Origin: Candidatus Blackburnbacteria bacterium RIFCSPLOWO2_01_FULL_40_20
GTDB taxonomy: Bacteria; Patescibacteriota; Microgenomatia; UBA8517; UBA10165
DNA: 41,895 bases
Assembly (NCBI GenBank): GCA_001816475.1
Contig: MHCC01000015.1
Coordinates: 402 to 42,296, forward strand
Direction of reading: 5' to 3'
Part shown: one piece after another, positions 1 through 25,454 of the stretch
How the letters are laid out: each line of letters opens with the position of its first letter
Position numbering within the stretch: position 1 is the first letter of the stretch
Position numbers and translations under genes: made by a program
The notes under the pieces: model-generated
Database searches by the model: none
The model's input: the letters and a program-made list of their open reading frames with translations, nothing else
What the model was told of the DNA's origin: nothing

Positions 1-1030
1 GACTGTAATGGGTATGGGTTTGTCATCAGGAGGTCACCTAACCCACGGGCATCCGAACATTACATTTTCCGGAAAATACTTTAATTCGGTTCAATTTGGA
101 GTTGAAGAAGACGGGCGAATTGATTATGAAAAAGTATTGGAGTTGGCAAAGAAAGAAAAGCCGAAGTTGATGATTATTGGCACTACCGCCTACCCGCTTA
201 TTCTTGATTGGAAAAAATTTGGCGAGATTGCAGATTCAATTGGGGCATGGTTTGTTGCAGATATTTCCCATGTCGCAGGGTTAATTGTCGCAGGAGTTTA
301 CCCAACTCCCGTTAAATATGCCCACGTCATAACAACTACTACCCACAAAACTTTAAGGGGTCCAAGGGGGGCAATTATAATGGCTACTGATAAAGGTATA
401 GATAAGCAAAGCTTGTCGCTTCACGATAAAGATAAAGAACTGGCAAAGAAAATTGATCGGGCGGTTTTTCCGGGAATGCAGGGTGGGCCACATGACAATG
501 TGACTGCGGCGATTGCACAATGTTTGTATGAGGCAGAGCAACCGGAGTTTAAAGAATATGGTAGGCAAGTTATCGAAAATGCCAAGGCCTTGGCTGCGGT
601 CCTGAGTGAGCGAAGCGAACCGAAGGACAAATTGACGTTAGTCGGTGGTAGCACTGAATCACACTTGATATTAATTGATTTGCGACCGCAAAATTTATCT
701 GGGAATGTCGTTGCCGAAGCTTTGGAGGTTGCAGGAATTGTGACCAATAGAAACAGTGTGCCGGGAGACACTTCTCCATTTTATCCGTCAGGCTTGCGTA
801 TCGGGACACCGGCAGTTACAACACGCGGAATGGGTAAGAGTGAAATGGAAAAAATCGCTGAGTGGATTTTGGCAGTAATTGATCACGTAAAAGACGAAAA
901 ATTACCAAGCATGCAAGAAGAAAGATCAAAGTTTTTACAAGAGTTCCGAGCAAGAATTAAAGATGATAAATTCTTGTTAGAAGTTGCTCAAGAGGTTAAA
1001 TCTCTTTGCTCCAAATTTCCAACACGTTAA
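1..1030 (+). CDS. glyA: Serine hydroxymethyltransferase, 5'-truncated by window edge
   Basis: Frame open from nt 2; SSGGHLTHGH, PLP-lysine motif TTTTHKTLRGPRG, AVFPGMQGGPH and SHLILIDLRP are SHMT signatures. Confidence 0.97.
   Translation, partial: TVMGMGLSSGGHLTHGHPNITFSGKYFNSVQFGVEEDGRIDYEKVLELAKKEKPKLMIIGTTAYPLILDWKKFGEIADSIGAWFVADISHVAGLIVAGVYPTPVKYAHVITTTTHKTLRGPRGAIIMATDKGIDKQSLSLHDKDKELAKKIDRAVFPGMQGGPHDNVTAAIAQCLYEAEQPEFKEYGRQVIENAKALAAVLSERSEPKDKLTLVGGSTESHLILIDLRPQNLSGNVVAEALEVAGIVTNRNSVPGDTSPFYPSGLRIGTPAVTTRGMGKSEMEKIAEWILAVIDHVKDEKLPSMQEERSKFLQEFRARIKDDKFLLEVAQEVKSLCSKFPTR
401..438 (+). repeat. Single diverged copy of the dnaX 24-bp unit inside glyA
   Basis: GATAAGCAAAGCTTGTCGCTTCACGATAAAGATAAAGAA; 21 of 24 bases match the dnaX unit; translates DKQSLSLHDKDKE. 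Confidence 0.88.
599..628. repeat. Hairpin-type element inside glyA (LSERSEPKD)
   Basis: GTCCTGAGTGAGCGAAGCGAACCGAAGGAC with GTCCT/AGGAC ends; resembles the intergenic element near 34190. Confidence 0.5.
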
Positions 1031-4891: not shown

Positions 4892-5317
4892 TTATTTGGA
4901 TGGTGAAAGTGGCGGAAGGCTTAGATAATCCTCGATTCTTTTCACCCGGGGAGCGTAGTAGTTGTCAAGTGAAATAAAAAGTTTATCAAATTTTTTCTCG
5001 ATTCTAACTTGACCCTTTTGCAACTTATCAACCTTTGATTCTACTTTTATGAGTCTGTTATTGATGGGTGACAGTTCTTCTTTGACGATGGCACGTGTTT
5101 CTTCTTGAACTATTTTCTTAGTTTCTTCTTGAACTATCTTTCTTGTTTCAGATGCAACTATCTTTCTTGTTTCAGATGCAACGATCTTTCTTGTTTCAGA
5201 TGCAACGATCTTTCTTGTTTCAGATGCAACGATCTTTCTTGTTTCAGAGATGACTATTGTTCTAGTTTCGCTATGTATTATTTTGGTGATTTGAGCCAAG
5301 TCTCTTTTTGTTAGCAT
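4892..5317 (-). CDS. Coiled-coil protein with tandem octapeptide repeats (ETRKIVAS)
   Basis: About eight 8-aa repeats, then KVDKLQKGQVRIEKKFDKLF. Confidence 0.7.
   Translation of the reverse strand: MLTKRDLAQITKIIHSETRTIVISETRKIVASETRKIVASETRKIVASETRKIVASETRKIVQEETKKIVQEETRAIVKEELSPINNRLIKVESKVDKLQKGQVRIEKKFDKLFISLDNYYAPRVKRIEDYLSLPPLSPSK
5136..5255. repeat. 24-bp tandem repeat array (atctttcttgtttcagatgcaacg) within the coiled-coil ORF
   Basis: Five near-identical consecutive 24-bp units at 5136, 5160, 5184, 5208 and 5232. Confidence 0.9.
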
Positions 5318-5367
5318 AATTTCAATATACTCTTTAGAGCAAAAATTACAAGAATGCTAAGTAGTTC

Positions 5368-6291
5368 TTAATATACCAAGTTAGCCCAACCGAGGTTTTT
5401 TGATGCTAAGTCTGCTAAAATTTCTTTACTTATTCGTTCGTATTCTTCTTTTGAAAATTTCCTGTTTAATATACAATATTCATCTTTTCGGTTTATGCCA
5501 ACACACCCCAAGCAATGGCTTACATTTGAGCAATCAAAAAGGTATGCACTATCTTGACAGTATGCACACCACACCATGTGGTGACAATTAAATAAGCTTG
5601 CCGAGTCAGTTACTTCGTAAGACAATTGATTTTCGCTTGACTGGGTTATGTCAAAGCAAGTTTTGCTGTGATAAGCATCAAACATGTAACTCGAGTCTTC
5701 ATTGCCTAAAGCATCAAAAAGAAGATAGCTGTTCTTATTTCTGTAAAAGTAATTTCCGTAACTTGAATTAACATTGTCCAGCTCGTTAGTTTGAGTGTAT
5801 GGATATAACTTTTTTAACTCATCAAGAATTTCAAAAACTCTACCCTTTGGCAAAGCTTTGTATTGGGGTAGTAAACGGCGATAGTCTGCTTCTGATAGCT
5901 GTCTGTTAAATATGCAAAAAGATTTATTTTTTAGGTTTGTACAACCAAACACATCATGGCAGTTGGAACTTCGGCAGCAAAAACTTGCGTCCCTCATGTT
6001 TGCACAATTATCGATATATTCACAGTTGTAGCACTTTAGTGCATCGTTGCATTCGTATGACAATTCCGACTCGGAACTATAATCGCAATCGAAACACTTA
6101 ACCATAAGGGAAGAATCGTAAATGTACGCAGAGTCTACCGTTTTTATTGTTTCAAAGGCCCAATAAAGGTTTTTGGAGTAGTAAACGTTGTTGCCCCACT
6201 CAGTTCCTTCAGAGTGCAAAATTTGGGATGGAATTCGTGGTCTTAAGGCAATTAGCCTATTAAGCTCGTTAAGAAATTCTTCTGCTGTCAT
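5368..6291 (-). CDS. Cys-rich hypothetical protein with internal repeats
   Basis: 307 aa; repeated C-x-x-C pairs and two copies of an NLKNKSFCIFNRQLSEADYRRL / GINRKDEYCILNRKFSKEEYERI module. Confidence 0.75.
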   Translation of the reverse strand: MTAEEFLNELNRLIALRPRIPSQILHSEGTEWGNNVYYSKNLYWAFETIKTVDSAYIYDSSLMVKCFDCDYSSESELSYECNDALKCYNCEYIDNCANMRDASFCCRSSNCHDVFGCTNLKNKSFCIFNRQLSEADYRRLLPQYKALPKGRVFEILDELKKLYPYTQTNELDNVNSSYGNYFYRNKNSYLLFDALGNEDSSYMFDAYHSKTCFDITQSSENQLSYEVTDSASLFNCHHMVWCAYCQDSAYLFDCSNVSHCLGCVGINRKDEYCILNRKFSKEEYERISKEILADLASKNLGWANLVY

Positions 6292-6638
6292 GCCGTATTT
6301 TCTGTCGGTTGATTTTGTGGCGCTACGACTGTTGTTTCGGGGAGCGGGTCTGCAATTATCGGATCATTTTCAGCAGTATGCTTCTCATAATCCTCACGGC
6401 AAAGAATCATGTTCGTTACTTTTTGAGGATCGTACGAAACCACGATGTTTTTTCCACATTTTTGACAAGTAGTTTTGAAAAGTTGTCGCTTGCCTCGCAA
6501 TTCAAGTCTTCTTTCTTGCCTGCAATACGGACACTCTAGAGGGAGAGGGAGACCTTTTTCCTTCAAGAATTGTTGCTCGGGGTCAATTATTAAAAACTGC
6601 TTTTGACACTTATTACAAGTTTGAGTAATAGCAGCCAT
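6288..6638 (-). CDS. Zinc-ribbon protein
   Basis: CNKC...CPYC and CQKC...C motifs; 4-nt overlap with the downstream Cys-rich gene. ORF track starts at 6674; ATG 6638 (MAAITQTCNKC) is likelier. Confidence 0.7.
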   Translation of the reverse strand: MAAITQTCNKCQKQFLIIDPEQQFLKEKGLPLPLECPYCRQERRLELRGKRQLFKTTCQKCGKNIVVSYDPQKVTNMILCREDYEKHTAENDPIIADPLPETTVVAPQNQPTENTA

Positions 6639-6758
6639 CAAACAAAGCATACATAAAGTAAATCTTGCTTTCAAGTATCAGCTTTGTTATACTATATTCA
6701 ATACACACATGCGGCCCTCCTTCGCCAAAGCTTCGGAAGGGTAAAGCGCGAGGGAAAC

Positions 6759-6806
6759 AGCTCCTGAGGTCTTAAAAACCCCGGTCGAATGGAGGAACAA
6801 GGAGCT
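6759..6806 (+). promoter_or_regulatory. Possible Shine-Dalgarno-sequestering leader of rpsB
   Basis: AGCTCCT (6759-6765) is perfectly complementary to AGGAGCT (6800-6806), which overlaps the SD (AAGGAG) of the ATG at 6815. Confidence 0.4.
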
Positions 6807-6814
6807 TTTTCAAT

Positions 6815-7567
6815 ATGCAAGTAACTTTAGAACAATTATTGGAAGCTGGTGCTCATTTTGGGCATCAAACTAGGCGTTGGAACCCTAAAATGGCTCCATA
6901 TATTTACGCGTCCCATAACGGCGTTCATATTTTTGATTTGGCTAAAACTCGAGAATCTCTTCTTGTCGCTTGTGATGCAGTTAAAAAAGTTGTTGCCTCC
7001 GGTGGCGTGGTTTTGTTTGTCGGTACAAAGCGTCAAGCTAAAGACTTTGTAACTGAGGCTGCAAAAGCTGTTGGTATGCCATACGTTACTAATCGCTGGC
7101 TTGGTGGAATGTTGACAAACTTTGAGCAAATTAGAAGGTCTGTTAAGAAGCTTGAGGATTTGCGCAAGGGTATGGCCGCAGGAGAATTCGATTCGCACAC
7201 AAAGAAGGAAAGAATTTTAATTGACAAAGAAATTGCGCGCCTTGAACGGATATTGGGTGGCGTTGAAACGCTTAAAAAACTTCCTGACTTAATGTTTGTT
7301 GTTGATACCCACGAAGAGCGTTTAGCAGTTCATGAGGCAAACATGCTTGGAATTCCAGTTGTTGGAATAGTTGATACAAACGCCGACCCAACAATTATTG
7401 AATATCCAATTCCTGCAAATGACGATGCTGCGCGAAGTGTTGAACTTTTGGTAGAATTTGCTAAAGAGTCGATTGAGGAAGGACAAGGCAGGGGTAGGGA
7501 TAAAGATAAAGAGTCTAAGAAAGATAAAGTCAAAGTTAAAAAATCAAAAATCAAAAATACAATTTAA
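6815..7567 (+). CDS. rpsB: 30S ribosomal protein S2
   Basis: LLEAGAHFGHQTRRWNPKMAPYIY; FVGTKRQAKD; TNRWLGGMLTN. Confidence 0.98.
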   Translation: MQVTLEQLLEAGAHFGHQTRRWNPKMAPYIYASHNGVHIFDLAKTRESLLVACDAVKKVVASGGVVLFVGTKRQAKDFVTEAAKAVGMPYVTNRWLGGMLTNFEQIRRSVKKLEDLRKGMAAGEFDSHTKKERILIDKEIARLERILGGVETLKKLPDLMFVVDTHEERLAVHEANMLGIPVVGIVDTNADPTIIEYPIPANDDAARSVELLVEFAKESIEEGQGRGRDKDKESKKDKVKVKKSKIKNTI

Positions 7568-7591
7568 TGTTCAAATATATTTGAAAAATAT

Positions 7592-8035
7592 ATGATAGAT
7601 AAAATTAAAAAACTTCGAGATGAGACTGCAGCTCCGATTCACGACATCAAGCGAGCTTTGGAAGAGGCTGGTGGAGACGAAACAAAGGCAAAAGAGATTT
7701 TGAAAAAGTCTGGATTTGCCCAAGCGGACAAGAAAGCGGCACGAGAGACCAAGGCTGGACGAGTATTCTCATATATTCATCACTCAGGAACTGTTGGTGC
7801 ACAAGTAATAGTTCTTTGCGAAACAGATTTTGTTGCAAGAACTGATGAGTTCCAAAACTTGGGTCGGGAAATTGCAATGCAAGTTGCGTCCATGAATCCC
7901 GAAAGCGTTGAAGAGCTTCTTTCGCAAGACTACATTAGAGAATCTGGAAAAACTATTGAAACTTTAATCAAAGAAGTAATTGCAAAAACAGGTGAGAACA
8001 TGCAGATAAGAGAGTTCAAAAGATTGGAAGTCTGA
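7592..8035 (+). CDS. tsf: Elongation factor Ts, short form (147 aa)
   Basis: KIKKLRDETAAPIHDIKRALEEAGGDETKAKEILKKSG; LCETDFVARTDEF. Confidence 0.95.
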   Translation: MIDKIKKLRDETAAPIHDIKRALEEAGGDETKAKEILKKSGFAQADKKAARETKAGRVFSYIHHSGTVGAQVIVLCETDFVARTDEFQNLGREIAMQVASMNPESVEELLSQDYIRESGKTIETLIKEVIAKTGENMQIREFKRLEV

Positions 8036-11241: not shown

Positions 11242-12669
11242 ATGAATTTTGAAAAAAGAGAAATTACTAAAAAGTCTGAAAATATCTCGCAGTGGTACAA
11301 CGATATTGTGCTAAAGGCTGAGCTTGCTGATTATGGTCCTGCAAAAGGGACTATGATTTTGCGTCCCTACGGATATGCAATATGGGAAGCAGTTATTGAT
11401 GGACTTGATCCCAAATTTAAAGAGGATGGAGTTGAGAACGCATACTTTCCAATGTTTATTCCTTCCAAACTTTTGCAAAAAGAAAAAGAGCACGTTGAAG
11501 GTTTTTCTCCTGAACTTGCTATTGTAACTATTGGAGGTGGGGAAAAACTAGCAGAGCCTCTGGTCATTCGGCCTACTTCAGAGACGATAATGTATGAGGC
11601 TTACTCCCGCTGGATTCATTCATATCGCGATCTTCCTCTAAAAATTAACCAATGGAATAGTGTGGTTCGTTGGGAGAAGAGGACGTATCTTTTCATGAGA
11701 ACATCTGAGTTTTTGTGGCAAGAAGGACATACTGCTCATGCAACTGAAAAAGAAGCAGACGAAATGGCGCGAAAAGGACTTGGATGGTATAAAGATTTCT
11801 ACCAAGAAAACTTTGCGATTTATGCTTTGGTTGGTGTCAAAAGTAACGCAGAGAAATTTGCTGGAGCGCAAAAAACTTATACTGTAGAACTTTTGATGCC
11901 TGATGGACGCGCGCTTCAGGCTGCAACATCACACAATTTGGGCGATAATTTTTCAAAAGCATTTGATATTAAATTTCAAGATGAAAAAGGTGAGAGCAAA
12001 TATGTTTTTCAAACGTCATGGGGTTTTTCCTGGAGGTCGTTGGGGGGACTTGTTCTTGTGCATGGGGACGATAATGGCTTAGTTCTACCTCCAAAAGTTG
12101 CACCTATCCAAGTTGTCATTATCCCAGTTTCTCCAAAGGAGCCCAACGGAATTAAAGATTATACGACTGAAATTACAATCAAGCTGAAAGGCTTAAAAAT
12201 AAAAGTTGACGATTCTCAAAACACAGTTGGTTGGAAGTTTAATCAGTGGGAACTTAAAGGAGTTCCTTTGAGAGTTGAAGTGGGCATCCGAGAACAGGAA
12301 AAGAGGGAAGTAACACTTGCAAGGCGCGATACAGGTGAAAAAATTACAGTATTTTTGGGTGACTTGAAAACAAAAGTTGATGAAGTTTTGGAGAGTATTC
12401 AACAAGGTCTACTCGAGAGGTCCGAAAAATTTGTTAAAGAAAATACCCGAATGGCCGAAAATTATGATGAATTTAAGCAAATCATGAACACAACACGCGG
12501 CTTTGTTTTGGCTTTTTGGTGTGAAGGTGCTGAGTGCGAGAAGAAAATAAAAGAAGAAACTAAAGCGTCAACTCGGTTTGTTCCACTGGACGCAAAAGAA
12601 GAAGACGGGAAGTGCATTTATTGTGGAAAACCTGCAAAGCACCGTTGGCTTTTTGCCCAATCTTATTAG
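11242..12669 (+). CDS. proS: Prolyl-tRNA synthetase, archaeal/eukaryotic-type
   Basis: GTMILRPYGYAIWE, PLVIRPTSETIMYEAYSRWI, NQWNSVVRWEKRTYLFMRTSEFLWQEGHTAHAT; C-terminal Cys cluster. Confidence 0.95.
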   Translation: MNFEKREITKKSENISQWYNDIVLKAELADYGPAKGTMILRPYGYAIWEAVIDGLDPKFKEDGVENAYFPMFIPSKLLQKEKEHVEGFSPELAIVTIGGGEKLAEPLVIRPTSETIMYEAYSRWIHSYRDLPLKINQWNSVVRWEKRTYLFMRTSEFLWQEGHTAHATEKEADEMARKGLGWYKDFYQENFAIYALVGVKSNAEKFAGAQKTYTVELLMPDGRALQAATSHNLGDNFSKAFDIKFQDEKGESKYVFQTSWGFSWRSLGGLVLVHGDDNGLVLPPKVAPIQVVIIPVSPKEPNGIKDYTTEITIKLKGLKIKVDDSQNTVGWKFNQWELKGVPLRVEVGIREQEKREVTLARRDTGEKITVFLGDLKTKVDEVLESIQQGLLERSEKFVKENTRMAENYDEFKQIMNTTRGFVLAFWCEGAECEKKIKEETKASTRFVPLDAKEEDGKCIYCGKPAKHRWLFAQSY

Positions 12670-12711
12670 CTTCATTGAATTTAGCACGACTTCGCGCTAC
12701 AATTTGTGCTT

Positions 12712-13623
12712 ATGGCGCAGGAACGCGAAAAACCCAGAGTAGCTGAAAGCATATCCGAGTTGTCTCAAAGGATTGGAATTTCAGTAGAACAAAAAACCCA
12801 GGAAAGGTTAAATGAGGTACTGGCTTCGTGGGTGGATGCACGTTCGGCGTGGGAAGGTTTGGAATCTTTTATTAAAGAGCTTGAGGCAATTTCAAAACAA
12901 AAATTAGTTCAAGTTTTGGAAGCTCGAGAAGTTGTAGTTCAAACAGAAGCCAGGCTTACAGTAACCAGAGCATTGTTGTCTCGGCGACAAGACGACATTT
13001 TTCCAGAAAGAGAAGAAATAATAAAAGGTAGGATTAGAGTGTTGTTGTCGGATGCAAAATTGCCATTCTACACCCGACCTTTTAAAGGCTTAATCTATCA
13101 CTTTGTCGGTGAGCCTGCCAAACTTCACCCTGCACTTAAATCCCACATGGATGCAGTCATTGAAGCTGATAAAAGAGTGGGGGTTGCTGCAAAGGGTTAC
13201 GAGGAGCACTCAGACAGAATTGTTGAAGGAAAAGTCGAGCTTCGGGAGCTTGATGAAAAAGTTGATCGGGCAAGAAAACAAGTTGTTAAATATGTAGTGA
13301 CATTGCGTCCAGACAAACAACAGGCCATGATGTTGATTAACGAGTTTCCACAAGAACAGGACATTATTATAAACGCATATGTTGAGCAAAATGCTTTTTC
13401 TCGTTTGGAACTTGCAAATCTTGATGAATTTTTAGGATCAACTGCTGCAATCAAGTGGCACACATTAAGCCCAGAACAACAAGTAAGTTGGAGAAATAAA
13501 AAATGTCCTTGGGCAAGAGAGGGAAGGGTTCCAACTGCACAAGAAATGAAAGCTTCAGATGATTTGATTAGGCTTTGGAAACAGTTTGTAAGGCGAAAAC
13601 TCCTGGAAGAAATCAGTTCTTGA
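12712..13623 (+). CDS. Hypothetical helical protein
   Basis: About 300 aa ORF; upstream TTGAAT-N17-TACAAT with ATG 12712 8 nt after the -10. Confidence 0.65.
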   Translation: MAQEREKPRVAESISELSQRIGISVEQKTQERLNEVLASWVDARSAWEGLESFIKELEAISKQKLVQVLEAREVVVQTEARLTVTRALLSRRQDDIFPEREEIIKGRIRVLLSDAKLPFYTRPFKGLIYHFVGEPAKLHPALKSHMDAVIEADKRVGVAAKGYEEHSDRIVEGKVELRELDEKVDRARKQVVKYVVTLRPDKQQAMMLINEFPQEQDIIINAYVEQNAFSRLELANLDEFLGSTAAIKWHTLSPEQQVSWRNKKCPWAREGRVPTAQEMKASDDLIRLWKQFVRRKLLEEISS

Positions 13624-17016: not shown

Positions 17017-17490
17017 ATGTTAAAGGATAAATTAAGCAATCAATTAAAAGAGGCGATGAGGGCAAAAGACGAGGTTCGAGTTTCGACCATTCGTTTACTC
17101 ATGAGTGCCTTAAATTACGAACAGATCGCAAGGCAAAGAGATCTAGCAGAGGAAGATGAAATTGTGATTGTCAGACGCCAACTAAAACAAAGAGAGGAAG
17201 CAGTGGATGCCCTTCGGCAAGCTCAGGGTAAACTTACCTACAAATCACAGTCTGGTAGCCTTGAAACTAGAATTGAGCGAGAGAAAAAAGAAGCAGAAAT
17301 TTTGAAAGAGTATTTGCCAGCGCAAATGAGCGCGGAGGAGCTTTCTGGTGTTCTGGAAGAAGCAGTAAAGGAAACAGGTGCAACCTCAGCTGCCGATTTC
17401 GGAAAAGTGATGCAAGCTGTTATGAAAAAAGTGGGTGGTAAAGCGGATGGCAAAACAGTCTCAGAAGAAGTAAGAAAGAGACTTACCTAA
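17017..17490 (+). CDS. GatB/YqeY domain protein
   Basis: LKEAMRAKDEVRVSTIRLLMSALNYEQI; ILKEYLPAQMSAEEL. Confidence 0.92.
   Translation: MLKDKLSNQLKEAMRAKDEVRVSTIRLLMSALNYEQIARQRDLAEEDEIVIVRRQLKQREEAVDALRQAQGKLTYKSQSGSLETRIEREKKEAEILKEYLPAQMSAEELSGVLEEAVKETGATSAADFGKVMQAVMKKVGGKADGKTVSEEVRKRLT
17210..17228. repeat. CCCTTCGGCAAGCTCAGGG element inside the YqeY gene
   Basis: CCCT/AGGG ends; encodes LRQAQG in a region that is a variable loop in YqeY proteins. Confidence 0.6.
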
Positions 17491-17903: not shown

Positions 17904-19568
17904 TTGAAAATTAATATGACATATTATCTAAAGTATCGTTCTCAAACGCTAGATCAACTGGACTTGGAGAAGGTTAGGGATCAACTTCAAAAGATTGTCT
18001 CCTCGGGCCGTGTTCCACATGCCTTATTATTTTCAGGTCCCAGGGGATCTGGAAAAACTTCAGCAGCGAGAATTTTGGCCAAGGTGGTTAACTGCGAGAT
18101 AAGAGATAAAGATAAAGATAAAGATAAGCAAAGCTTGACGCTACGCGATAAGCAAAGCTTGACGCTACGCGATAAGCAAAGCTTGACGCTACGCGATAAG
18201 CAAAGCTTGACGCTACGCGATAAGCAAAGCTTGACGCTACGCGATAAAGAACCGTGCAACAAGTGTGGGTCGTGTGTTGCCATAACGAAAGGTTCGAGCT
18301 TGGATGTTATAGAAATTGATGCAGCGTCAAACAGGGGCGTGGATGATATTCGAACCCTTAGGGAAACTGTAAAGTTATCACCAATTTCTGCACGAATGAA
18401 AGTTTACATAATTGACGAAGCGCACATGTTGACAACGGAGGCATCAAATGCACTTTTGAAAACTTTGGAGGAACCGCCCGCACACGCCATGTTTATCTTG
18501 GCAACGACTGCCCCCGAAAAACTTTTAGACACAATCCGGTCCCGATCAACCTTAATAAATTTTTACAAAGGAACAGTCCCTGAGGTAATTAGATCACTTA
18601 AACGGGTTGTGAAAGGCGAGAAATTGAAAGTTGAAGATGGAGTTTTGGAAGAAATTGCTGGGAGGGTTGACGGAAGTTTTCGTGAGGCACACAAAACCTT
18701 AGAACAACTTTCATTTGGCGTAGAGCAAATAAAACTGGAAAGTGTCAAAAACCTTTTAACTTCAAATATCGCTAATCCGGGAAAGCTAATTTCACTTTTG
18801 GCAGCCAAAGATACAATAGGCGGGATTGGGGAGATTGGGGAAATAGTTGAGAAAGGGGCAAGCCTAAAAGTTTATGGTGTAGAATTGGTTAGATTGCTTC
18901 GGGAAAGTATGTTTGCAAAGTTGGGTGTGGGTGGCAACGACACGGCAAGAGATTTGAATGTTGAAGATTTAAGACAACTTATTGAACTTTTTTGCGAAGC
19001 TGTAAGACAAATTCCTACCGCAGTTATACCACAATTGCCGTTGGAAATGGCAATTGTAAAATGGTGTGGAGAAGATAGAGATAGAGATAAAGATAAAGAA
19101 ACAAATATAAGCATTAGAGTAACTGAGAAAGTTGCAGTGGAACAAGTCTTACAGACAGACACATCCTTTACGGAAAAAAGCGAGGAGGTGGAAGAAAAAA
19201 AAGAGAAGAAAAAGACGGCAAGTACTTTAACTGAGGCGGAACTTGAGGAAAAGTGGAAGGAAATTATGAAGAAAACAAAGGACAAAAATCACTCGTTAGA
19301 AGCACTACTTCGTGCTTGTAAACCGCTTAGTTTTGACGGCCGGAACCTTCAGGTCGAAGTTTTTTACCCATTCCACAAAGAAAGGCTTGAAAAGGAACTT
19401 TATACATCAATTTTTGAAAAAGTAGCCTCTGGCGTTATTGGAGTAGACGTTAGGCTTGAAAGTGTCCTTTCTTCTTCCAAGAAGCGTGCCGCAGATGTTA
19501 CAAATGTTTTAGCTCCTAAAGAAGAGGATTTGGTGAAGGTTGCAGAGGAAATTTTTGGTGGAAATTAG
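17904..19568 (+). CDS. dnaX: DNA polymerase III subunits gamma/tau
   Basis: YRSQTLDQL, LLFSGPRGSGKTSAARILAK, CNKCGSC zinc motif, EIDAASNRGVDDIR, YIIDEAHMLTTEASNALLKTLEEPP. Confidence 0.97.
   Translation: MKINMTYYLKYRSQTLDQLDLEKVRDQLQKIVSSGRVPHALLFSGPRGSGKTSAARILAKVVNCEIRDKDKDKDKQSLTLRDKQSLTLRDKQSLTLRDKQSLTLRDKQSLTLRDKEPCNKCGSCVAITKGSSLDVIEIDAASNRGVDDIRTLRETVKLSPISARMKVYIIDEAHMLTTEASNALLKTLEEPPAHAMFILATTAPEKLLDTIRSRSTLINFYKGTVPEVIRSLKRVVKGEKLKVEDGVLEEIAGRVDGSFREAHKTLEQLSFGVEQIKLESVKNLLTSNIANPGKLISLLAAKDTIGGIGEIGEIVEKGASLKVYGVELVRLLRESMFAKLGVGGNDTARDLNVEDLRQLIELFCEAVRQIPTAVIPQLPLEMAIVKWCGEDRDRDKDKETNISIRVTEKVAVEQVLQTDTSFTEKSEEVEEKKEKKKTASTLTEAELEEKWKEIMKKTKDKNHSLEALLRACKPLSFDGRNLQVEVFYPFHKERLEKELYTSIFEKVASGVIGVDVRLESVLSSSKKRAADVTNVLAPKEEDLVKVAEEIFGGN
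18105..18248 (+). repeat. In-frame repeat tract in dnaX: (GATAAA)3 then five 24-bp units GATAAGCAAAGCTTGACGCTACGC
   Basis: Five identical 24-bp units at 18123-18242; translates as DKDKDK(DKQSLTLR)5DK. Confidence 0.97.
19183..19234 (+). promoter_or_regulatory. Candidate -1 frameshift/slippage signal in dnaX
   Basis: SD-like AGGAGGTG (19183-19190), A8 run (19195-19202, codons GAA AAA AAA GAG), -1-frame TGA at 19232-19234. Confidence 0.55.
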
Positions 19569-24065: not shown

Positions 24066-25454
24066 ATGGCCTTACAAATTTATAATTCACTAACTAGAAA
24101 AAAAGAGGAGTTTAAGCCGATAAATTCGCCTTCAGTCGGAATGTACACCTGCGGGCCGACGGTTTATGACTTCATGCATATTGGAAACCTTAGAACCTTC
24201 TTGCTCTCGGATATATTGTACCGCACTCTTGTTGCTAGCGGTTACAAAGTCAAACTTGTGATGAACATAACAGATATTGAAGACAAGATAATAAAACGTG
24301 CAAAGGAACGAAATATAACGCCTAGTGAATTGACCAGCAAATATACAAAAGCGTTTAAAGAAAATTTGCAAAAACTAAATATACTGCCGGCTGATGTTAA
24401 TCCTCACGCGACAGAATATATTTCCCAAATGGTTGAATACATAAAAGCATTGGTGGAAAAAGGTTTAGCCTATGAAAAAGATGGCTCTGTTTATTTTGAT
24501 ATTTCCAAATTTCCAGAATATGGAAAGCTCTCGGGAGTTGAGACGCGGGAACTTAAAACAGGGACAAGAATTTTGTCGGATGAATACGCAAAAGAAGATG
24601 TCCAAGATTTTGCTTTATGGAAAGCAGTGGACAAAGATGAAGTTGGTATGATGAGCCCTTGGGGTTGGGGAAGGCCTGGATGGCACATTGAATGTTCCGT
24701 AATGAGCCAAGAACAACTTGGCGAAACTTTGGATATTCATGTTGGTGGAATAGACCTCATGTTCCCGCATCACGAGAACGAGATTGCACAGTCTGAAGGC
24801 AAGACGGGCAAAAAGTTTGTAAATTATTTTGTTCATGGTGAGTTTTTGTTGGTCGATGGAAAGAAGATGAGCAAGTCGCTTGGTAATTATTACACTTTGT
24901 GCGATATTGAAGAGAAAGGCTTTACTCCCGCGAGCTTTCGTTATTTGGTTTTGACGGCGCATTACAAAGACCAAATGAACTTTACTTGGGAATCGTTAAA
25001 GGGGGCACAGACGGCATATGAGAGGCTCAAGAGCCTGGTGTCGGGTGTTGCGCAGTCGGATAGGACTGTTCTGTCGGCTGAAAAAGAGGAAAAGATTGAT
25101 GAGTATAGGGAAAAGTTTTGGGCAGCGGTTAACAATGATTTGAATATGCCACAAGCACTGAGCGTTGTTTGGGAAGTAGCAAAGAGCAATATACCGAGCC
25201 AGGACAAAAGAGACTTGATACTGTTGTTTGATGAAGTGTTGGGGCTCGGGTTGGGAGATGTGCGTAAAGATACAGATACAGATGAAGATAAAGAGCTGTC
25301 GGGGGAAGTGAAAAAACTTGTAGAAGAAAGGGAAGAGGCGAGGAAAAATAAAGACTTTAAGAGAAGTGATGAGTTGAGAGACAAGTTGCAAGAGATGGGG
25401 TACGAAGTTGAGGATACTCCAGAAGGTACGCGCGTCAGACACGCAAAAAAATAA
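24066..25454 (+). CDS. cysS: Cysteinyl-tRNA synthetase
   Basis: MYTCGPTVYDFMHIGNLRTF, WHIECSVMS, HHENEIAQSEG, KMSKSLGN. Confidence 0.98.
   Translation: MALQIYNSLTRKKEEFKPINSPSVGMYTCGPTVYDFMHIGNLRTFLLSDILYRTLVASGYKVKLVMNITDIEDKIIKRAKERNITPSELTSKYTKAFKENLQKLNILPADVNPHATEYISQMVEYIKALVEKGLAYEKDGSVYFDISKFPEYGKLSGVETRELKTGTRILSDEYAKEDVQDFALWKAVDKDEVGMMSPWGWGRPGWHIECSVMSQEQLGETLDIHVGGIDLMFPHHENEIAQSEGKTGKKFVNYFVHGEFLLVDGKKMSKSLGNYYTLCDIEEKGFTPASFRYLVLTAHYKDQMNFTWESLKGAQTAYERLKSLVSGVAQSDRTVLSAEKEEKIDEYREKFWAAVNNDLNMPQALSVVWEVAKSNIPSQDKRDLILLFDEVLGLGLGDVRKDTDTDEDKELSGEVKKLVEEREEARKNKDFKRSDELRDKLQEMGYEVEDTPEGTRVRHAKK

Follow-up and report, generated by a model that had tools for sequence, protein, structure and literature searches.

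The question raised by this locus is whether a perfect tandem repeat inside the zinc module of DnaX belongs to this protein or has a wider origin. The initial annotation of the window (the whole stretch of DNA analysed, 41,895 nucleotides) had described GATAAA hexamers and five perfect 24-mers in frame in dnaX, and this was confirmed from the sequence and by TRF. (GATAAA)3 is followed by five identical GATAAGCAAAGCTTGACGCTACGC units and one further GATAAA, spanning 18105-18248 of the window, for which TRF gave a period of 24, 5.2 copies and a match of 100%. Six matches to the 24-mer are present in the window, against none expected from 100 shuffles of it. The features of the locus are as follows.

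17916..19568, + strand: dnaX (DNA polymerase III gamma/tau subunit), carrier of the array; ORF with ATG at 17916 and stop ending at 19568
18093..18095, + strand: codon of zinc ligand 1 (Cys of the NC pair); sequence and alignment to E. coli DnaX
18105..18122, + strand: (GATAAA)3 hexamer tract, read as DKDKDK; sequence
18123..18242, + strand: five identical 24-bp units, read as (DKQSLTLR)5; sequence, 24-mer search and TRF
18243..18248, + strand: closing GATAAA, read as DK; sequence
18255..18275, + strand: zinc ligands 2-4, CNKCGSC; sequence and alignment to E. coli DnaX

The identity of dnaX was established by matches to NCBIfam dnaX_nterm (E 7e-86), to Pfam DNA_pol3_delta2 and DnaX_C, and to E. 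coli gamma/tau structures. The codons of the ligand cysteines begin at 18093, 18255, 18264 and 18273, which places the insert between ligands 1 and 2. All four ligand cysteines of the zinc module (NC and CxxCxxC) are retained. The array was thus correctly assigned to the zinc-module loop, with the reading frame remaining open across it. Aligned to E. coli DnaX, the 49 query residues 56-104 (the query of the homology searches began at protein residue 8) stand opposite only four residues, and therefore about 45 extra residues separate ligand 1 from ligands 2-4. The spacing between ligands 1 and 2 is 53 residues here versus 6-18 (median 9) in 29 relatives. Since all 29 loops are short, the insert is not fixed. 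A single-sequence AlphaFold model of DnaX had a mean pLDDT of 37 and was set aside as unusable; the insert is probably a disordered, roughly neutral loop.

When the genome (958 kb, 27 contigs, 98.3% complete) was searched for the 24-mer, the repeat proved not to be confined to dnaX, and the reading of it as a zinc-module event of dnaX was not supported. From its genome size and gene content, the organism is probably a member of the candidate phyla radiation. Three arrays were identified, in dnaX, in rpoB and upstream of mltG, the last two on one contig distinct from that of the window. The C-terminus of rpoB carries five units and a partial one, read in the same frame as in dnaX; the repeat was not found in the RpoB tails of the relatives examined. 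The leader of mltG, a gene named from its translation without a profile search, carries seven intergenic units, the array ending about a dozen bases before the start codon. A further, diverged copy is located in the window:

401..424, + strand: single copy with 3 mismatches, in frame in glyA, read as DKQSLSLH; 24-mer search

The glyA, rpoB and dnaX copies have one common reading frame, and the residues of the glyA copy stand opposite a gap in the solved serine hydroxymethyltransferase to which it was aligned. At 598-632 of the window, glyA has another insert in frame, of palindrome-like sequence (LSERSEPKDK), five residues of which are without counterpart in the aligned solved enzyme.

Exact copies of the unit are common to all three arrays, and variant units are private to single arrays: CTAGGC occurs in three neighbouring units in rpoB, and the variants at mltG are the first unit and the last two. 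Judged by sequence, this combination of common exact units and private variants is what local duplication of units would produce. The recent expansion or homogenisation postulated from the perfect identity of the dnaX units thereby gains support, three adjacent rpoB units sharing a private variant as local duplication would leave them. Purely local slippage in dnaX, in which a GATAAA tract mutated to a 24-bp unit and then expanded with no dispersed element involved, would account for the five perfectly identical units and for the flanking hexamer tract of similar sequence. However, two other loci carry arrays of the identical unit, which contradicts this explanation unless the three arrays are convergent, and a family with covarying hairpins exists in other genomes; local slippage is accordingly considered highly improbable.

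Other repeats were seen in the same genome. A yqeY-like gene contains, at about 17205-17290 of the window, an in-frame LRQAQGKLTYKSQSGSLETRIE stretch with CCTTCGGCAAGCTCAGGG, a common REP-like palindrome. A minus-strand ORF (4892-5317) contains a 24-bp tandem array in frame at 5132-5248, read as (SETRKIVA)n, whose unit is unrelated in sequence to the dnaX unit. On contig C6 (L028 / L180, 7599-10859) a head, GATAAGCAGAGCTTG, is fused to a different palindrome, CCCGATCAAATCGGG, with the in-frame reading LDKQSLSRSNRDKDVDTDK; the GATAAGCAGAGCTTG-CCCGATCAAATCGGG junction suggests chimeric elements. The commonest dispersed short repeat of this genome is AAATTGAAAATTG-like, with approximately 24 loci in the 391 kb sampled.

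All low-mismatch copies of the unit in this genome adjoin GATANA hexamers. GATANA tracts gave 69 overlapping matches here and 54 in one other genus of the family, and were near background in the remaining relatives searched (0-8, versus 0-5 for a reversed-pattern control). In 492 kb of sample stretches, 24 hexamer tracts were found, a figure which is no density estimate as the stretches were partly picked for their matches. Twenty-one of these lie inside predicted genes, 17 of them in the sense frame and reading mainly D-K or D-T (p ~3e-9 versus a one-in-five open-frame chance, with tracts assumed independent). Sense-frame tracts are carried by argS, an aldolase, ppsA, cysS and dnaX, all with profile matches, and by genes named from their translations, namely recF, a gene like that of a polymerase I exonuclease, and a copper ATPase. 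Two of these tracts are in the window:

19074..19103, + strand: second dnaX hexamer tract, before the tau C-terminal domain, DRDRDKDKET; tract search and domain limits
25269..25292, + strand: hexamer tract in frame in cysS, DTDTDEDK; tract search, cysS by profile

The antisense tract at L137 probably reflects a mispredicted gene, there being a longer sense frame at that place. At L134, argS (11497-13308) has three D-K/D-T tracts, and a leucyl-tRNA synthetase-like gene (4918-7677) carries in-frame low-complexity inserts, KFEIRNSK..NLKFKIEN and ASTRPASICVERASP. Three genera have hexamer tracts at corresponding positions next to the gap gene (L131 8124-8238; L169 5141-5601; L144 from 1501); in two of the three they are in inverted orientation and flank a stretch of approximately 400 bp, which is cut to about 100 bp in the genome of the window.

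The anatomy of the unit, which in the family is about RATAAGCRAAGCTTGNNRCTTCGY, was studied in 28 aligned copies. Two mini-hairpins, AAGC-RAA-GCTT and NNRC-TTC-GYNN, describe these copies, the right arm of the second extending into the first bases of the next unit. Two-sided changes were counted in 29 cells versus 10.8 in shuffles (0 of 500 as high), and the signal was lost once the partners were slid. The copies from other genomes were found by pattern, which biases the conserved columns except columns 16-17 and 25-26; the column pair 17-25, left free in the search pattern, pairs in 26 of 27 distinct copies with four pair types. The covariation of the two mini-hairpins points to hairpin formation having been kept by selection. 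One long hairpin (GCRAAGC/GCTTCGC) was also considered and was rejected, its covariation being no higher than in shuffles. In sequence, the hairpin core GCRAAGC, like the GCGAAGC read on the opposite strand, is close to d(GCGAAGC), a DNA mini-hairpin known for its stability. Tandem units can be read without a stop in one of the three sense frames, that encoding the hydrophilic DKQSLTLR, and in two antisense frames. GTAG and CGTC strings are present inside the reverse complement of the unit of this genome; in the family alignment they do not make up a conserved end. Rfam returned no match of the unit to any described RNA family up to E = 1.

Of 385 genomes of the class, 8, among them the present one, have the unit with up to 3 mismatches. 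A relaxed pattern gave matches in 18 of 38 genomes of another family, and none with the reversed-pattern control. These relatives of the unit are of low copy number, some being intergenic and others in frame, where [DN]K[QTR]SLxLR recurs as the encoded peptide; one in-frame copy, in dihydroorotase, corresponds to an exact eight-residue gap in the alignment to a solved homologue. Genome G364, of another family, carries four tandem 24-bp units in frame, (NKQSLILR)4, in a predicted membrane protein of 593 residues, an array independent of that in dnaX. Its existence argues against an explanation by assembly only or by something specific to dnaX. Calothrix and Enterococcus were rejected as relatives, the exact 19-mer scan of named genomes having given two matches, about the estimated chance number. 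No such repeats in candidate-phyla genomes were evident in titles and abstracts of the open-licence literature, which is weak evidence of absence.

The unit counts, including the five in dnaX, are as assembled in one metagenome-type assembly, that of the one genome of the genus covered. That the assembler expanded or collapsed the locus, so that the true number of units differs, is conceivable in an assembly of 27 contigs given that the array with its hexamers, at 144 bp, is near short-read length. Against such an artefact stand the ordered internal variants in the rpoB and mltG arrays and the in-frame 24-bp array of a different genome; moreover, it could change the number of units but not create the element. 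This explanation was judged unlikely.

Several relatives have DnaX loops of 13-18 residues at the site of the insert, and a few carry inserts of their own there, e.g. GKGKREKGKNANI and HNNPSPITRHPSPIG, which are unrelated in sequence, and therefore the zinc loop looks tolerant. An adaptive extension of the zinc module, with selection keeping a repeat loop that binds a partner or modulates the clamp loader, would fit the intact frame and four cysteines as well as these longer loops. It is at odds with the occurrence of the peptide in rpoB, in glyA and in an unrelated membrane protein elsewhere, and with the unrelated sequences of the relatives' inserts, and is very unlikely. As the unit is also arrayed in rpoB and upstream of mltG, and as other genomes have members of its family in frame in unrelated genes, the simplest view of the zinc loop is that of a landing place which tolerates insertion, and the dnaX insert is no new design of the zinc module.

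No carrier or transposase of the element was found. Mobilisation as a REP by a Y1 (RAYT) tyrosine transposase, since lost from this genome, would agree with the mini-hairpin anatomy and with the presence of Y1_Tnp in 9 of 10 element-bearing genomes versus 10 of 26 element-free relatives (Fisher p = 0.008, G001 left out), a comparison confounded by lineage. Yet the genome of the window, 98.3% complete, has no Y1_Tnp, and the element flanks none of the 20 Y1 loci examined, several of which have other palindromes. The usual arrangement of REPs is, moreover, in dimers and not in head-to-tail arrays (PMC3733652). We therefore regard a lost Y1 transposase as improbable. The palindromes near the Y1 transposase loci of relatives (L212-L231), e.g. 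TTCCACC..GGTGGAA, are not of the dnaX type.

The array is thus likely to be a member of a dispersed, hairpin-forming family of short repeats, whose in-frame copies are tolerated and which is amplified by whole units. Members of the family occur between and inside genes across the class. As the one sense frame free of stops encodes eight residues of hydrophilic character, a copy landing in frame in a surface loop would be tolerated. Because the period of 24 bp is eight codons, whole units may then be gained or lost by replication slippage or by unequal recombination with the frame left intact; the local duplication in rpoB would be the visible trace of such amplification. In this lineage the copies sit in GATANA tracts, themselves spread in frame through core genes, and have been amplified at dnaX, at rpoB and in the mltG leader, the dnaX loop between ligands 1 and 2 being lengthened as a result. 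A broader proposal can be offered only tentatively, as somewhat doubtful: that these are a class-wide, undescribed family of 24-bp, eight-codon coding mini-hairpins which spread with no transposase dedicated to them, use GATANA landing sites in this lineage, have repeatedly been amplified in frame in essential proteins and serve as a source of new linker peptides.

A genome of 0.96 Mb with an eight-codon element in frame in dnaX, rpoB and glyA, together with an independent in-frame amplification in a second lineage, would allow a direct test of how the essential proteins of a reduced genome accommodate inserted repeats, and of how repeats are dispersed without an obvious transposase. It also calls for caution, since odd protein inserts in such genomes may be repeat DNA rather than functional domains.

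Protein-coding palindromes of Rickettsia and Wolbachia have been described as selfish DNA tolerated in proteins. Like these Rickettsia palindromic elements (RPE) and the Wolbachia palindromic element, which form hairpins, lie both between genes and in frame in conserved protein genes, and encode short peptides (PMC2229807), the present element is in frame in dnaX, rpoB and glyA and intergenic in the mltG leader, with more cases in other genomes. RPEs, however, measure 105-146 bp and have a 12-bp terminal inverted repeat (PMC2229807), whereas the dnaX-type unit is of 24 bp, outside this size range, with two mini-hairpins and head-to-tail in-frame arrays. By this comparison the element would work like the protein-coding palindromes of Rickettsia, yet it is no RPE. 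In size and palindromic character it resembles REPs, the GTAG- and CGTC-tagged palindromes of 20-40 bp which are sometimes inside genes (PMC3733652), but it differs in its low copy number and head-to-tail arrays, with no Y1/RAYT in the genome and no Y1 gene elsewhere, among the 20 loci examined, flanked by it. With bacterial intragenic minisatellites (VNTRs) it shares perfect head-to-tail units, a period that is a multiple of the codon and locally duplicated variant units; unlike them, its unit is part of a family of hairpin repeats found across the class, and a single genome has arrays of it at several loci. What is new with respect to Rickettsia and Wolbachia is a far shorter unit of exactly eight codons, whose mini-hairpins are backed by compensatory changes.
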